Below, one piece after another: positions 26,732 through 33,593 of a stretch of 64,000 bases of DNA. Each line of letters begins with the position of its first letter. The stretch's first letter is position 1. The notes under the pieces were generated by a model. It did no database searches. It was not told the DNA's origin and saw only the letters and a list, made by a program, of their open reading frames with translations. The stretch spans positions 1 through 64,000 of the forward strand of contig WGNH01000014.1 of assembly GCA_016124665.1 (NCBI GenBank), in the 5' to 3' direction. The stretch comes from Alphaproteobacteria bacterium. Its GTDB lineage: Bacteria > Pseudomonadota > Alphaproteobacteria > Caulobacterales > Maricaulaceae. The position numbers and the translations under genes were made by a program.

Positions 26732-27970
26732 CTAGATGAGAAAACTCTTCGCTTTATGCAATGCCTCGAGAAAGACATCGACTTCGTCAGCCGTATTGTA
26801 GATCGCGAAACTGGCCCGGACCGTCGAGTCCACGCCGAAGCGGCGCATCAGCGGCTGGGCACAGTGATGACCGGCGCGCACCGCCACACCATATTTGTCT
26901 AGCAATTGCGCCAGATCATGCGCATGCGCGCCGTCCAAGGCAAAGGACAGGATCGCCCCCTTGTCCTGCGCCGTGCCGATCAGCTGGATGCCCGGCATGG
27001 CGGACACGCCCTGGGTCGCCCGGTCGAGCAGCGCGCGCTCGTGCTCCATCACCGCAATGCGATCGAAGCGGCTGACCCAATCGATTGCGGCGCCGAGCCC
27101 GATGACATCCGCTATGGCCGACGTTCCGGCCTCGAATTTGTGCGGTACATCGGCCCAGGTCGAATGATCTTCATGGACATCGGCGATCATCTCGCCCCCG
27201 CCCTGCCAGGGCGGCAGCCGGTCCAGCCAGTCGCCCGACGCATAAAGCGCACCGGCGCCTGACGGGCCATAGAGCTTGTGGCCAGTGAAGACGAAAAAGT
27301 CACAACCGAGCCCGGTCACATTGACCGGCATGTGAACCGCAGACTGCGAACCGTCCAGCAGCACGGCCGCGCCATTGTCGCGGGCCATCTTCACGATACG
27401 CGAGGCCTCATTCGTGGTGCCCAGCACGTTGGACATATGGACCATGGCCACCAGCCGCGTGCGCGCACTCATCAGGCCCATCAGCGCATCATAATCGAGC
27501 TCTCCGGTCTGGGTGACCGGGCACCATCTGATCACCGCACCGGTGCGCTGTGCCAGCAGCTGCCAGGGAATGATGTTGGAGTGGTGCTCCATCTGGCTGA
27601 GGATGATTTCGTCCCCGGATTCAAGGGTCTGGCCGAAACTGTTGGCGACCAGATTGATGGCTTCTGTGGCACCGCGCGTCAGAACGATCTGCGCGGCATT
27701 CTGAGCGCCCAGAAAGTCGGCAATCTTCTGCCGTGCGCCCTCGAACGCCTCGGTGGCCTCATTGGCCAGCGTATGCAGGCCGCGATGCACATTGGCATAG
27801 GAATAGCGATACACGTTCGAGAGCGCCTCGATCACAGCCTCCGGCTTCTGCGCGGAGGCAGCATTGTCCAGATAAACCAGTGGCTTGCCATTGATCTCGC
27901 GCTGCAGGATCGGGAATTCCGACCGGATCGCCGCGATATCGAGCGCCTTTATGGGCGTGTGCGCCGTCAT
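26732..27970 (-). CDS. sufS: SufS-type (class II) cysteine desulfurase
   Basis: PLP enzyme that takes sulfur from cysteine as persulfide for Fe-S assembly. It has 412 residues. Class II features are YLDNAASAQKP near the N-terminus, PLP-binding Lys232 in TGHKLYGPSG, and catalytic Cys370 in VRAGHHCAQPLM, with the short active-site loop of SufS. It overlaps sufD by 4 bp (ATGA). No SufE gene is in this window, so its sulfur acceptor is either encoded elsewhere or replaced. Confidence 0.96.
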   Translation of the reverse strand: MTAHTPIKALDIAAIRSEFPILQREINGKPLVYLDNAASAQKPEAVIEALSNVYRYSYANVHRGLHTLANEATEAFEGARQKIADFLGAQNAAQIVLTRGATEAINLVANSFGQTLESGDEIILSQMEHHSNIIPWQLLAQRTGAVIRWCPVTQTGELDYDALMGLMSARTRLVAMVHMSNVLGTTNEASRIVKMARDNGAAVLLDGSQSAVHMPVNVTGLGCDFFVFTGHKLYGPSGAGALYASGDWLDRLPPWQGGGEMIADVHEDHSTWADVPHKFEAGTSAIADVIGLGAAIDWVSRFDRIAVMEHERALLDRATQGVSAMPGIQLIGTAQDKGAILSFALDGAHAHDLAQLLDKYGVAVRAGHHCAQPLMRRFGVDSTVRASFAIYNTADEVDVFLEALHKAKSFLI

Positions 27971-29076
27971 ACCAGGTCCTTCAACCGCTTCGCCACCAGG
28001 CCGCGGATCGTGGCCGCCGTCTGTTCATGCGTGATTTCAGCGAGGGCTTCATCCAGGAAGCTTTCCACCAGCAGGCGGCGCGCCTCGGATTCCGGAAGGC
28101 CGCGCTGCTGCATGTAGAAGAGCGCCATTTCATCAAGCGTGCCAATCGCATTTCCGTGCGCGCATTCAACGTCATCGGCATAGATTTCCAGTTCGGGCTT
28201 GGCGTCGATCTCCGATTTCTCGTCTATGATCATGCCCTTGTGGGTCATCCGGGCGTCGGTTTTCTGGGCTTCACGCTTGACGTGAATCTTGCCCTGGAAA
28301 ACGCCATGGCCACCGCCATAGGCAATGCCCTTGGTCAGCTGCGACAATTCCCCGTCCGGCCCGTGCATGTTGACGCGTGTCGTCAGATCCGCGTGTGCGC
28401 CCTTGCCGACCAGATAGGCCGCGTTCAGCGTCACTTTTGCGCCCCCGCCTGCCGAATGCAGCTGGGTTTCATGCCGGACCAGCTTGCCGCCCTGGGAAAT
28501 CACGGTCTGCACAAACTCGCCGGTCTCATGCACGGTCACGCCACTGGATAAAAGCAGTACGGATTCCGGCGCTTCGTCGATCAGGATGACACGCTCCACA
28601 TGCGCGCCCGGCCAAACAACGTAATCCACACCGATGGCGCTGAAGGCCTGGACTTCCGAGCTGTAATGTTCATGCACCCTGACGGACATGCCCGGCGCTC
28701 CTACAATCGTGGCCGCGGCCTGCGATACGCCTTTCAGCGCCCGGAAATCGAGATCGAGTACGGTCAGATTCCGGGGCTCGAAATAGGTGACATTCATCAC
28801 ACCGGCAAAGGCCAGCAGATTGGCAAAGAAATCCTGATCTGCCGCACGGCGCACTTCGGTCCACTCCGGATTGACCGAGGACCGGAACTGGACTTTTCCC
28901 GCGCCGGTAATGCCTTTGGTGGCCCGCTCCACATCCGACCATTTCCAGTCTTCATCGCGCCGCGTCGGCAGGCCGACCTTTTTCAGACGGGCCGCGAAGT
29001 CGCCACGCCAGCCGGTCGCCCCCTTGAAGGGCAACAGCACCTGCTCAAGGGCGTTTGTGGGTTCGATGACTGCCAT
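27967..29076 (-). CDS. sufD: SufD, Fe-S scaffold subunit
   Basis: Partner of SufB in the SufBC2D scaffold. It has 369 residues. The conserved C-terminal SufBD core includes DEKSEIDAKPELEIYADDVE, then CAHGNAIGTLDEMALFYMQQ and RGLPESEARRLLVESF, with the invariant Cys/His pair of the cluster-assembly interface. The N-terminal half is divergent, as is usual. The start overlaps the sufC stop by one base and the end overlaps sufS by four, so the three are translationally coupled. Confidence 0.95.
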   Translation of the reverse strand: MAVIEPTNALEQVLLPFKGATGWRGDFAARLKKVGLPTRRDEDWKWSDVERATKGITGAGKVQFRSSVNPEWTEVRRAADQDFFANLLAFAGVMNVTYFEPRNLTVLDLDFRALKGVSQAAATIVGAPGMSVRVHEHYSSEVQAFSAIGVDYVVWPGAHVERVILIDEAPESVLLLSSGVTVHETGEFVQTVISQGGKLVRHETQLHSAGGGAKVTLNAAYLVGKGAHADLTTRVNMHGPDGELSQLTKGIAYGGGHGVFQGKIHVKREAQKTDARMTHKGMIIDEKSEIDAKPELEIYADDVECAHGNAIGTLDEMALFYMQQRGLPESEARRLLVESFLDEALAEITHEQTAATIRGLVAKRLKDLV

Positions 29077-29828
29077 CAGGCCGCCCTCACATATTTGTCA
29101 TAACCTTCGGCCTCGAGCTCCTTTGCGAGCTCCGGACCGCCGGACGCCACGATCTTCCCGTCGCTCATAACATGAACAACATCAGGCGAAATATGATCCA
29201 GCAGACGCTGATAATGGGTAATGACCAGCATACCGCGCTCGGGCGAACGCAAGGCATTGACGCCGTCGGAGACAACTTTCAGCGCGTCGATGTCCAGCCC
29301 GCTATCGGTTTCATCAAGGATGAGGAAGCGCGGCTCCAGCACGGCGGCCTGCAGGATTTCGAGGCGTTTCTTCTCGCCGCCGGAAAATCCGACATTCACA
29401 GGGCGCTTTAACATATCACCAGAAATATTCAGAAGCTTTGCCTTTTCCCGAACATGTTTCATGAAATCGGGTGCCGACATCTCATCTTCGCCACGGGCAC
29501 GGCGCTGGGCGTTCAGTGCTTCCTTCATGAAAGTCAGGGTCGGCACGCCGGGAATTTCGACCGGATACTGAAAAGACAGGAAGAGGCCCTTCGCGGCCCG
29601 CTCCTCGGGCGCCAGATCGGCGATGTTCTCACCGTCATAGAGGATGCTCCCGTCTGTCGCCTCATAGCCGTCCCGGCCGGTCAGCACATAGGAAAGAGTC
29701 GATTTGCCCGAGCCATTCGGGCCCATGATGGCGTGCGCCTCACCCTTGGGCACAGACAGGTCCAGCCCCTTGAGGATGGGTTTGTCGCCACCAACCGAGG
29801 CGTGGAGGTTCTTGATCTCAAGCATCAC
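29076..29828 (-). CDS. sufC: SufC, ATPase of the SufBCD complex
   Basis: ABC-type ATPase that powers the Suf scaffold. It has 250 residues. Walker A is GPNGSGKST, the signature is GFSGGEKKRLEI, Walker B is LILDETDSGLD, and the H-loop region is LVITHYQRLL. No membrane partner is present, as expected. The start ([18 protein letters not shown]; either Met) overlaps the stop of the unrecognised gene upstream by 4 bp. This means that gene, and not sufB, is its immediate neighbour here. Confidence 0.97.
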   Translation of the reverse strand: MMLEIKNLHASVGGDKPILKGLDLSVPKGEAHAIMGPNGSGKSTLSYVLTGRDGYEATDGSILYDGENIADLAPEERAAKGLFLSFQYPVEIPGVPTLTFMKEALNAQRRARGEDEMSAPDFMKHVREKAKLLNISGDMLKRPVNVGFSGGEKKRLEILQAAVLEPRFLILDETDSGLDIDALKVVSDGVNALRSPERGMLVITHYQRLLDHISPDVVHVMSDGKIVASGGPELAKELEAEGYDKYVRAA

Positions 29829-30454
29829 TGATTACCCATTGCGAGGCCGCAATAATACGCCTCGCCCTCTGTTTGGCCGCCATCGACGAGCGAGCAGTCG
29901 GGGCCGTCATCGACGTTCTCGACGGTCTCGTATGTCAGGAAAATCGTGGCGATATTGTCGAGCTCGAGCCCTTCGAGACGATAGAATTCGATATAGCGGG
30001 CGATCGCGCTGTCGCGGGCGGCGGCCATGAAGACGCCGTCGCCGACCGGGTCAATGCCATAGCCATTCAGCTCGTGTGAGGTCCATTCGAAGCCGTATTC
30101 CGTGCCGATGGCCAGACTGTAGGTCGTGTTGACGTTTCCGGTTTCGAGCGGCACCAGCAATTCTTCCATGCCGTCGCCATTGAGGTCGGTCAGGCTGGGA
30201 TAGAAGAAGCTCTCCGTGGCATAGCTCATCGTCTGCGCCAGCGTTCCGTCGAGATACCGGACCGTCGCATCGATCATTTCGCGGCGGTCATCAAGCGGCG
30301 AGAATTCGAAGCTGAGCATGAAGGCGTGGTCGCCGGCTGTCTGAAACACGCAATCTTCGTGCGTGGCATTGCTTTCCAGCTCATCGCACAGTGGCAGACC
30401 TTCCTGGCCAGCATCCTGCGCCATCAGCGCGGCGGCGAGTGCGAATTCGATCAT
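29825..30454 (-). CDS. Exported-looking protein inside the suf operon, unrecognised
   Basis: I do not recognise this 209-residue protein. The N-terminus [19 protein letters not shown] looks like a short signal peptide, though it lacks basic residues. Four cysteines (23, 35, 187, 202) sit as one pair near each end, suggesting disulfides and export. Residues 90-97 read DLNGDGME, a D-x-N-x-D-G-x-E calcium-type loop seen in FG-GAP/VCBS-like proteins, inside [20 protein letters not shown]. It overlaps sufB upstream by ATGA and sufC downstream by ATGA, so translation of all three is coupled. The open frame extends upstream into sufB; the ATG at 30452-30454 is the sensible start. A role in Fe-S assembly is not shown. 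Confidence 0.82.
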
Positions 30455-31953
30455 CCCACGCTCCCTTCGAGCGAGACCTTGAGGAGTTGCTGGGCTTCGA
30501 CCGCGAATTCCATCGGCAATTCCTGCAGCACGTCGCGGACAAAGCCGTTCACGAGCAGCGCAGTCGCGGTTTCCTCGTCCAGACCACGCTGGCGGGCATA
30601 GAAGAGCTGGTCCTCGGCGAGCTTGGTCGTTGTCGCCTCGTGCTCCAGCTGGGCTTTGGGCGTCTTGCATTCGATATAGGGCACGGTGTGAGCGCCGCAC
30701 TGATCGCCGATCAGCAGGCTGTCGCACTGGGTGAAATTGCGCGCGCCCTCGGCCTTGGCGTGGATGGAGACCAGACCGCGATAAGTGTTGTCAGAGCGGC
30801 CGGCGGAAATGCCCTTCGAGATGATACGCGAGCGGGTATTTTTGCCCAGATGGATCATCTTGGTGCCGGTATCGGCTTGCTGTGCGCCATTGGTGACGGC
30901 GACGGAGTAAAATTCACCGACCGAATTATCACCGCGCAGGATGCAGGACGGGTATTTCCAGGTGATGGCAGAGCCGGTCTCGACCTGCGTCCATGACACT
31001 TTCGAATTCTTGCCCCGGCAATCAGCCCGCTTGGTGACAAAATTATAGACACCGCCCTTGCCGTTCTCGTCGCCCGGCCACCAGTTCTGAACCGTTGAAT
31101 ACTTGATCTCGGCATCGTCCATGGCGACGAGTTCGACCACGGCGGCGTGCAGCTGGTTTTCATCGCGCATCGGTGCGGTGCAGCCTTCCAGATAGGAGAC
31201 GTAAGAGCCCTCTTCCGCGATGATCAGCGTGCGTTCAAACTGGCCGGTACCTTCCGCATTCATGCGGAAATAGGTGGAAAGCTCCATCGGGCATCGCACG
31301 CCCTTGGGCACATAGACGAAGGTTCCGTCGGAAAAGACGGCGCAATTGAGCGTCGCGAAATAATTGTCCGATTTCGGCACCACCGAGGCGAGGTATTTCT
31401 TCACCAGTTCCGGGTGCTCGCGAATGGCTTCGGAGATCGACATGAAGATGACGCCCGCCCTGGCGAGCTCGGCCTTGAACGTCGTCGCAACCGAGACGCT
31501 GTCGAACACGGCATCGACCGCCACGCGGGGCTTTTCACGCGCTTCTGCGGCGGTTTCAGCCGCCCCGGCGACACCCAGCAGGACTTCCTGCTCGCGCAGC
31601 GGAATGCCGAGCTTTTCGAAGTCGGCGAGAATTTCCGGCGGCACGTCATCAATGGACTCATATTTCGCCCCGGATGAGGGCTCGGCATAGTAATAGATGT
31701 CCTGATAATCGATCTTCGGATAATTGACCTTGGCCCAGTCCGGCTCGCGCATTTCAAGCCAGCGCTTATAGGCCTCCAGCCGCCAGTCGAGCATCCATTG
31801 CGGCTCGTCCTTCTTGGCCGAGATATAACGGACGGTCTCTTCAGACAGGCCTTTCGGCGCACGTTCCTGCTCCACCTCGGTGGTGAAGCCGTACTTGTAC
31901 TTGTCCGATTCCAGACGTTTGACGTCTGCGATGGTTTCCTTGACCGCTACCAT
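30451..31953 (-). CDS. sufB: SufB, Fe-S scaffold subunit
   Basis: Main scaffold protein on which the cluster is built, with SufC and SufD. It has 500 residues starting [16 protein letters not shown]. Conserved stretches include [60 protein letters not shown], and the C-terminal core [20 protein letters not shown] with its cysteines. The longer frame to 32004 lies in the gap after the desulfurase gene and is not needed. The downstream neighbour by 4 bp overlap is the unrecognised exported-looking gene. Confidence 0.97.
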
Positions 31954-31966
31954 GATTTTCTTTCGC

Positions 31967-33109
31967 TTAAGCGATTTCCTTGAGACGCGGCTTGACCCGC
32001 GCATATTCGGCTGACCAAGCCTTCAGAAAGGCCTCGACATCGGCTTCGGTCGAATTCCAGCCGAGACTGACCCGGATCGTACAATTGGCCGTCTTCTCGC
32101 ACATCATCGATGACCAGGTCTTCGACACGCCGGTCTTGCCCGATGAACAGGCCGAGCCGGAACTAACGCAAATACCGGACAGGTCGAGCGCGATGACCTG
32201 CATGCCACCTTCCCAACCCGGCACACAAATGGCCGAAGTGTTGGGCGTGCGGGGCGCGTTCTTGCCGAGAAAACAGATGTTTGGATCGATTTCCTGCAAT
32301 TGGGATTCAATCCGGTCGCGCCAAATTCCGATCTGCTTCCACTTGTCCGGCTCCGCCAGACAGGCCTCCAGTGCCTTGGCAAAGGCATAGGCTCCCGGCA
32401 CATTCTCCGTGCCCGAACGTCGGCCCTTTTCCTGGCCACCACCGCGCCTTGGCACATCAAATGGGGCGTCGCAGGCCAGGATTAAAGCCCCAACGCCTTG
32501 CGGCCCGCCGACCTTGTGCGCGGAAACCGCAGCATAATGCGCCCCGGACGCGGCGAAATCGAACGAGATTTTTCCCAGCGCCTGCACGGCATCGATATGG
32601 AACAGCCCGCCAGCCCCGCGGACAATGCGCGCGGCTTCGGCAAAGGGCTGGATCACTCCGGTTTCGTTATTGGCGGCATGGAGACAAACCAGCACCTTTT
32701 CGTCTTCTCCGAGCGCTGAAAGCCGGTTTTGCAACCAGGTCAGATCGGCCAGCCCGTCGCGTGTGATCGGCAACAACTCGACCGGCAGCGCTGTGGTCTC
32801 GGCGAAACGCGCGACGGCCTCATGTTCACTGATCGTGTGGATGATGCGGGTCACGCCACCGCCCCGCACCGCGCCTTCAATGGCGAGGTTATCGGCTTCA
32901 GTGCCACCGGCCGTGAAGACGATGTCATTCGGCTGCGCGCAGACGGACCGGGCAATCGACAGACGGGCGTGCTCAAGAATGGCGCGCGCGCCCCTCCCCA
33001 CGGAATGAACAGCTGACGGGTTTCCGCCCCGATCCATGGCATCCAGCAATGCCTGACGCGCTTCAGGCCGCACCGGCGTTGTTGCATTGTGATCGAGATA
33101 GACTGCCAT
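31967..33109 (-). CDS. IscS-like (class I) cysteine desulfurase
   Basis: Second PLP cysteine desulfurase of the operon, 380 residues. The N-terminus [20 protein letters not shown] is class I. The PLP lysine lies in [10 protein letters not shown]. The catalytic Cys lies on the longer loop [19 protein letters not shown], as in IscS/NifS. It is placed between iscR and sufB, a common alphaproteobacterial order. It may supply sulfur for tRNA thiolation or for Suf under other conditions than SufS. I start at ATG 33107-33109; the extra 18 upstream codons overlap iscR's end. Confidence 0.94.
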
Positions 33110-33128
33110 TTCCCTCAATTGCCTTTGT

Positions 33129-33593
33129 CTATTCTGCCGCCATCGAATCCGATGCGCGTTCATTCGCGCCCCGGGCCGCGCCCATCACCCGCCCGGCAAT
33201 CACATCTTCCAACGTGATTGATCCGAGGAAAAGGTAGATGTGGCGACTCAGCTCATCCCACAGATCATGTGTGATACAGCGGCGGCCATTCTCTATACAG
33301 CCCCTGGCCTCACCTTCGCAGCGCGTGATATCAACGCTCTCATCGACGGCGGACATGATGTCGATCACGCGGATGTTCTCCGCTGGCCGTGCCAGGGAAT
33401 AACCACCGCCGGGTCCGCGCACGGAATCGACAAGCTCGGCTTTGCGCAAGCGTGCGAACAATTGTTCGAGATAGGATAGCGATATGGATTGGCGCGAGGC
33501 GATGTCGGCCAGAGTGACGGGACCGCGTACGGATCTGCGGGCCAGATCGGCCATCGCCATGACGGCATAGCGGCCTTTGGTGCTTAACTTCAT
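33129..33593 (-). CDS. iscR: IscR, Rrf2-family [2Fe-2S] transcription regulator
   Basis: Represses Fe-S assembly genes when loaded with its [2Fe-2S] cluster. It has 154 residues beginning [20 protein letters not shown]. The winged helix spans about residues 1-70 with [20 protein letters not shown]. The cluster ligands Cys92, Cys99 and Cys106 ([16 protein letters not shown]) are present, with His109 as likely fourth ligand as in E. coli. It is first in the iscR-suf operon, with a probable binding site about 100 bp upstream. So the operon should be autoregulated by cluster demand. Confidence 0.95.

Follow-up and report, generated by a model that had tools for sequence, protein, structure and literature searches.

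The junction between sufB and sufC is an accessory-gene slot in the bacterial order that holds the genome described here, and one of the slot's recurrent occupants, here called gene X, encodes a protein that is predicted to have the inhibitor fold of XAC2610, PliI and Tsi1 over most of its chain. On balance we lean towards X being an exported, calcium-loop member of this fold that inhibits a peptidoglycan hydrolase and that is carried by the suf operon as cargo, with no role in Fe-S assembly. Across a whole order, a single junction within the principal operon for Fe-S assembly is where unrelated genes dock.

Gene X in the suf operon

In the window, meaning the whole 64,000-nucleotide stretch that was analysed, the suf operon reads Rrf2 regulator, IscS-like desulfurase, sufB, X, sufC, sufD and sufS, as judged from Pfam matches and gene order. 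The genes are the following.

33129..33593, minus strand: Rrf2/IscR-like regulator, upstream of the desulfurase (Pfam)
31967..33112, minus strand: IscS-like cysteine desulfurase (class V aminotransferase), named by position
30451..31953, minus strand: sufB (Pfam SUFBD_core); its stop overlaps the X start (ATGA)
29825..30454, minus strand: gene X, 209 residues, predicted divergent XAC2610/PliI-like protein, probably exported
29076..29825, minus strand: sufC (Pfam ABC_tran and position); its start shares one base with the X stop (TGATG)
27967..29076, minus strand: sufD (Pfam SUFBD_core and position)
26732..27970, minus strand: sufS (class V aminotransferase), named by position

The frame of X (209 codons, minus strand, 29825-30454) is intact, and both the reading frame and the Pfam matches of its neighbours uphold the first-pass annotation, which had placed a 209-residue frame between sufB and sufC. 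That annotation had also described ATGA overlaps on both sides. The overlap is as described at the sufB end, where the X start codon is preceded by a GGAG-type ribosome site, but at the other end the X stop TGA (29827-29825) and the sufC ATG share a single base to give TGATG; an alternative GTG start for sufC would make this overlap GTGA. In the two closest genomes, G003 and G007, the first of which is assigned to the same genus as our own, X ends in TAA and still overlaps sufC by one base. X is present as a single copy in its own genome and belongs to a family of 71 members in 64 genomes, found by a profile search over all open reading frames of the fetched stretches (seven genomes have two).

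Predicted fold and probable envelope location

The AlphaFold2 model of X has a pLDDT of 91.2. Searched against the PDB with Foldseek, it returns a single match below 1e-3, namely XAC2610 (4QTQ; E 1.5e-5, TM 0.51, rmsd 5.5, in an alignment of 201 columns with gaps to a target of 209 residues). VIA-align scores 4QTQ at Z 10.4 (rmsd 4.0, 163 aligned), the PliI structure 4PJ2 at Z 9.7 (rmsd 2.8, 105 aligned) and unrelated propellers at Z up to 8.8. As far as the model goes, the order of XAC2610 over PliI over unrelated folds is clear and the margin modest. Tsi1 is not among the 50 structural matches listed by Foldseek and VIA-align, and a search of a viral fold library gave no match to X below 1e-3.

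Family models point the same way. The NCBIfam model NF047539 (XAC2610_fam) is matched at E<=5 by 36 of 49 aligned members of the X family, with a best value of 2.1e-7. When ten members were scanned singly, eight matched it (E 2.3e-7 to 7.3e-3) and two did not, the best reaching 31.2 bits and all eight staying below the curated cut-off of 35 bits. The X protein of the window has no match to this model at E<=5, and a search of its own genome with the model found none at E<=0.01; scanned alone against Pfam, NCBIfam and PDB sequences, window X gives nothing above cut-off. Matches of window X to fatty-acid-binding proteins (E 0.87 and worse) were judged to be chance. In a comparison of alignments, hhalign pairs the X family with seven XAC2610_fam proteins, taken from other genomes of the phylum and all above the cut-off, at a probability of 97.6 (E 3.9e-12, 94 columns). 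As controls, seven other slot families reached at most 16.9 over at most 31 columns; the orphan lipoprotein described below, aligned a second time, reached 21.1 over 22 columns.

The 49 aligned rows, chosen from the 71 members mostly for clean starts, share six invariant residues (C23, C35, D90, N109, C187 and C202). The features of X that matter for its location and function are as follows.

30419..30454, minus strand: putative short signal sequence, residues 1-12 (from the translation; low model confidence)
30386..30388, minus strand: Cys23, invariant in 49 rows
30350..30352, minus strand: Cys35, invariant in 49 rows
30161..30187, minus strand: calcium-type loop D90-x-N92-x-D94-G-x-x-E98, from conservation; compare XAC2610 residues 151-159
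30119..30145, minus strand: residues 104-112, by spacing the counterpart of loop 165-173, with which XAC2610 inhibits; includes N109, invariant in 49 rows
29894..29896, minus strand: Cys187, invariant in 49 rows
29849..29851, minus strand: Cys202, invariant in 49 rows

The two Cys pairs that had been pointed out earlier are present, with all four residues invariant in this alignment. The acidic loop had been written as D-x-N-x-D-G-x-E; the loop itself is kept, but its exact motif is the longer one listed above. D90 occurs in 49/49 rows, D94 in 46/49 (N in the other 3) and D or E at position 98 in 49/49. N109 is found in 49/49 rows, and its ungapped spacing of D90+19 in 48/49. Across the whole family, a stricter pattern places N at +19 in 66/71 members; a loose loop pattern also gives 66/71, with partly different misses and some matches outside the loop.

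Taken together with the lipobox-like starts found in 48/71 family members (counted with a simple pattern applied to selected starts), the invariant Cys residues suggest that X is probably an envelope protein. The same family features favour the earlier view that X is not a cytosolic Fe-S factor. Window X itself has a short hydrophobic N-terminal stretch with no basic residues and no lipobox-like start, and the mean pLDDT of its model is 56 over residues 1-10 and 62 over residues 11-20; that this particular member is exported is likely on the strength of its relatives.

In the mechanism that we propose, X would be periplasmic (a lipoprotein in most relatives) and would block a peptidoglycan hydrolase by pushing its conserved TGNVN loop, which carries the invariant Asn109, into the enzyme's active site. 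The blocked enzymes may be lysozyme-like, coming from rivals, predators or animals, or may include an autolysin of the cell's own. Through its place in the accessory-gene slot of a core operon, X would be made alongside the Suf proteins while taking no part in Fe-S assembly. An orphan defence role of this kind appears to be the simpler reading for X, and it would offer a function that can be put to the test for a family that no dedicated curated model covers.

Alternatively, X may have this fold and sit in the envelope yet do something else, such as binding glycan, peptidoglycan or a partner protein as FG-GAP-type proteins do, and we consider this conceivable but somewhat unlikely. FG-GAP_3 is weakly matched by 31/49 members (best E 2.2e-4). 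A PDB profile search lists 59 chains, among them integrins and other FG-GAP proteins, lyases and lectins, and 4QTQ is absent from these 59. The tip residue of X is Asn, unlike the Tyr or Ser of known inhibitors. Set against these points, however, the best fold match over most of the length of X is XAC2610, its best family model is XAC2610_fam, and the loop next to the calcium loop on its C-terminal side ranks with the best-conserved stretches of the protein.

The sufB-sufC junction and its occupants

The junction was surveyed in relatives picked by kinship and not by X content. Besides our own genome there were 59 of these, with sufC found at 1e-60 in 54 and sufB too in 51. In these 51 relatives the median gap between sufB and sufC is 813 nt; the gap exceeds 300 nt in 41/51 and is <=100 nt in 6/51. 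The sufC-sufD gap exceeds 300 nt in only 1/52 (52 of the 54 relatives with sufC). Among alphaproteobacteria outside the order, the sufB-sufC gap is >300 nt in 3/48 genomes, <=300 nt in 45/48 and <=100 nt in 35/48; these 48 were measured out of 61 class genomes with sufC, leaving out the 13 with the lowest SufC scores, i.e., the most diverged. Fisher's test for an insert of >300 nt in the order versus outside gives p about 1e-14, a guide value given that the genomes are related. The first-pass annotation had taken sufB to be directly followed by sufC as the standard arrangement, which holds for most sampled class genomes outside the order but not for this order. In a wider set of 110 stretches with sufC, sufB lies upstream in 105, and X is present in three of the remaining five (G001, G115 and G244). 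Stretches added later were chosen for carrying X, so that X counts over the 110 are biased upward.

The contents of the slot recur in changing combinations (for example, L052, L056, L050 and L090). Besides X, the occupants are RidA (16 genomes), a small membrane family (15), cupins (14) and an orphan lipoprotein (14), with VOC (5 genomes) and SnoaL-like (3) proteins being rarer, plus 44 singletons. Pfam names come from a scan of ten slot proteins, with the 44 singletons outside it. Several occupants deserve a description of their own. RidA clears reactive products of PLP enzymes, and RidA-family genes in the suf operon (e.g., L058:2472-3014 and L053:2499-2891; X also in 3/16) are possibly apt there, the operon encoding two desulfurases of the class V aminotransferase type. 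The small membrane-type family (L073:3376-3684, L163:3203-3502) co-occurs with X in 12/15 genomes and has no Pfam match for the one member scanned. The orphan lipoprotein (L053:1909-2460, L056:731-1213, L162:2713-3210) has invariant C, R, W and C residues near its end, and its model (pLDDT 83.6) finds no structural match better than E 0.38. Finally, in G037 a pair of small open reading frames (L088:2739-3301), resembling by eye an antitoxin and a ParE/RelE-type toxin, ends directly at sufC.

A literature search, which was not exhaustive, found no general description of a sufB-sufC slot. Another insert at this junction is known elsewhere, annotated as a putative ADP-ribosylglycohydrolase, with co-transcription shown by RT-PCR over some junctions of the operon. 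The momL gene of Muricauda olearia, a bacterium of a different phylum than the host of X, encodes an AHL lactonase. It too lies between sufB and sufC, as described in PMC5484670, a single case to be set beside an order-wide slot. Care must be taken when function is read from a suf neighbourhood in these bacteria, where genes lying between sufB and sufC may be cargo.

Among named relatives, Hyphobacterium indicum comes closest, at 94% identity, and was the sole match in a genome-contig scan. NCBI taxonomy places this genus in Maricaulales, Maricaulaceae, and the order and family labels in our genome searches follow a different scheme. An X homologue occurs in 9/60 close genomes (own included) and in 63/398 genomes of the order; G383 (E 7.9e-4, one internal stop) was unconfirmed by the profile and is excluded from the 64 genomes of the family. 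Of the 71 X reading frames, 64 lie upstream of sufC on the same strand, <=1045 nt away, in 8 genera and 3 families (G383 again excluded). The remaining 7/71 have no sufC in the fetched stretch; they are the only copy in five genomes (G069, G188, G221, G330 and G350), where the sufB-sufC junction was seen without X, and a second copy in two. Just 9/64 suf-linked frames overlap sufC or end <=2 nt from it, so tight coupling is not a trait of the family. In three genomes, the off-suf X genes (L173, L174 and L177) share a neighbourhood with a LysR-type regulator and transporter-like genes, named by eye, and no hydrolase partner was recognised by eye beside the off-suf copies. Tandem pairs of diverged X genes occupy the slot in L128, L135, L137, L140 and L141.

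Beyond the order, a class-wide search with the X profile matched 3/385 genomes, our own included. The remaining two, both weak and partial, score 30.3 and 26.9 bits in frames of 550 and 5628 residues and are provisionally taken as other FG-GAP proteins. The sequences searched suggest that the family is practically absent from the class outside the order, with the proviso that <=7 candidates were scored per genome and rare relatives could escape. Over 55 loci, X distances track SufC distances (Spearman 0.37, a value reached by 0/999 permutations), in keeping with a mostly vertical inheritance of X. X is nearly saturated (mean difference 0.71, against 0.27 for SufC).

These data also bear on whether X could be an accessory factor for Fe-S assembly or iron homeostasis, kept beside sufB and sufC for its function. 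Linkage of 64/71 frames to sufC in 8 genera would suit such a factor, as would the report in PMC11475020 that iron starvation raises the Caulobacter suf operon. The first-pass annotation had named conservation in several genera as support for a Suf-linked role; such conservation next to sufC is strongly supported, but it does not demonstrate a Suf role. Against it, lipobox-like starts and invariant Cys residues point outside the cytosol, unrelated genes fill the same slot in other genomes, the slot is <=100 nt in 6/51 relatives, and five genomes have their sole X copy among the seven off-suf frames. A Suf role of X is unlikely, and we would give it little weight. The unrelated company in the slot, the off-suf copies and the variable spacing from sufC favour cargo in a permissive slot over a component of the Suf machinery.

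The idea that the X frame is a recent chance insertion, or goes unexpressed, deserves next to no credence: a homologue in just 9/60 close genomes and the failure of any family model to reach its cut-off for X would agree with it, but a dN/dS of 0.125-0.195, a family in 64 genomes, the GGAG site with a coupled start, and the lack of phage and plasmid homologues by tblastn at 1e-3 all stand against it. X is a protein under purifying selection that evolves faster than its neighbour sufC, with the above range (NG86, window versus the G003 and G007 set) accompanied by a YN00 value of 0.131 for one pair and by 0.03-0.04 for sufC in the same comparison. A PHROGs search gave weak scattered matches and nothing more. 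Recent insertion, one of two explanations offered for the coupling in the first-pass annotation, is not borne out by a family spread over the order with distances that follow those of SufC.

Returning to X as a cargo-borne inhibitor, its co-expression with suf under iron limitation would follow from its position. A broader reading, which we put forward tentatively as possible, is that the junction permanently houses cargo in this order, an iron-responsive core operon there driving genes for envelope defence and stress. X would then be a new class of orphan immunity protein, an Asn-tipped and effector-less inhibitor of peptidoglycan hydrolases that guards against the cell-wall enzymes of attackers.

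Comparison with known inhibitors

The nearest known systems are XAC2610, PliI and Tsi1, the last of which is a T6SS immunity protein of Pseudomonas aeruginosa. According to PMC10933484, Tsi1 resembles XAC2610 and PliI both in topology and in the way its loop works, and PliI and Tsi1 plug their enzymes with a topologically equal loop. The same source describes calcium binding by residues 151-159 of XAC2610, predicts that loop 165-173 reaches into the active site of XAC2609, a GH19 effector, and reports that Y170A significantly compromises inhibition (PMC10933484). Counting without gaps, Y170 is 151+19 and N109 of X is D90+19; hhalign sets an insertion and a gap within the loop, so that N109 can be equated with the enzyme-contacting Y170 only to within about two residues. 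In XAC2610_fam, L251 and L252 have Tyr at the tip place, and L256 and L257 have GMVN there, as in several X members.

No cognate effector or hydrolase gene was recognised in the slots (slot clusters, and Pfam on 10 slot proteins with the 44 singletons outside), and a search for the T6SS sheath gene (VipB) in our own genome found no match, with a positive control in E. coli. That immunity proteins may pay off without an effector is a possibility raised in PMC6536674.

X thus resembles XAC2610 (X-Tfi of Xanthomonas citri, 4QTQ) in its predicted fold over most of the length, its calcium loop and the conserved loop that follows, and most X relatives show, by a simple pattern, a lipoprotein-like start. 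Unlike XAC2610, X has Asn109 in place of Tyr170, scores below the family cut-off, is placed in suf and has no recognised adjacent effector gene. PliI-Ah, a periplasmic inhibitor of i-type lysozyme (3OD9, 4PJ2), shares its core sheet with X but is shorter, with a Foldseek E of 0.066 at best, and has Ser at the loop tip according to PMC10933484. If X inhibits as proposed, this inhibitor fold would gain a branch whose tip residue differs and for which no effector partner was recognised, standing beside the Tyr-tipped XAC2610 and the Ser-tipped PliI-Ah.
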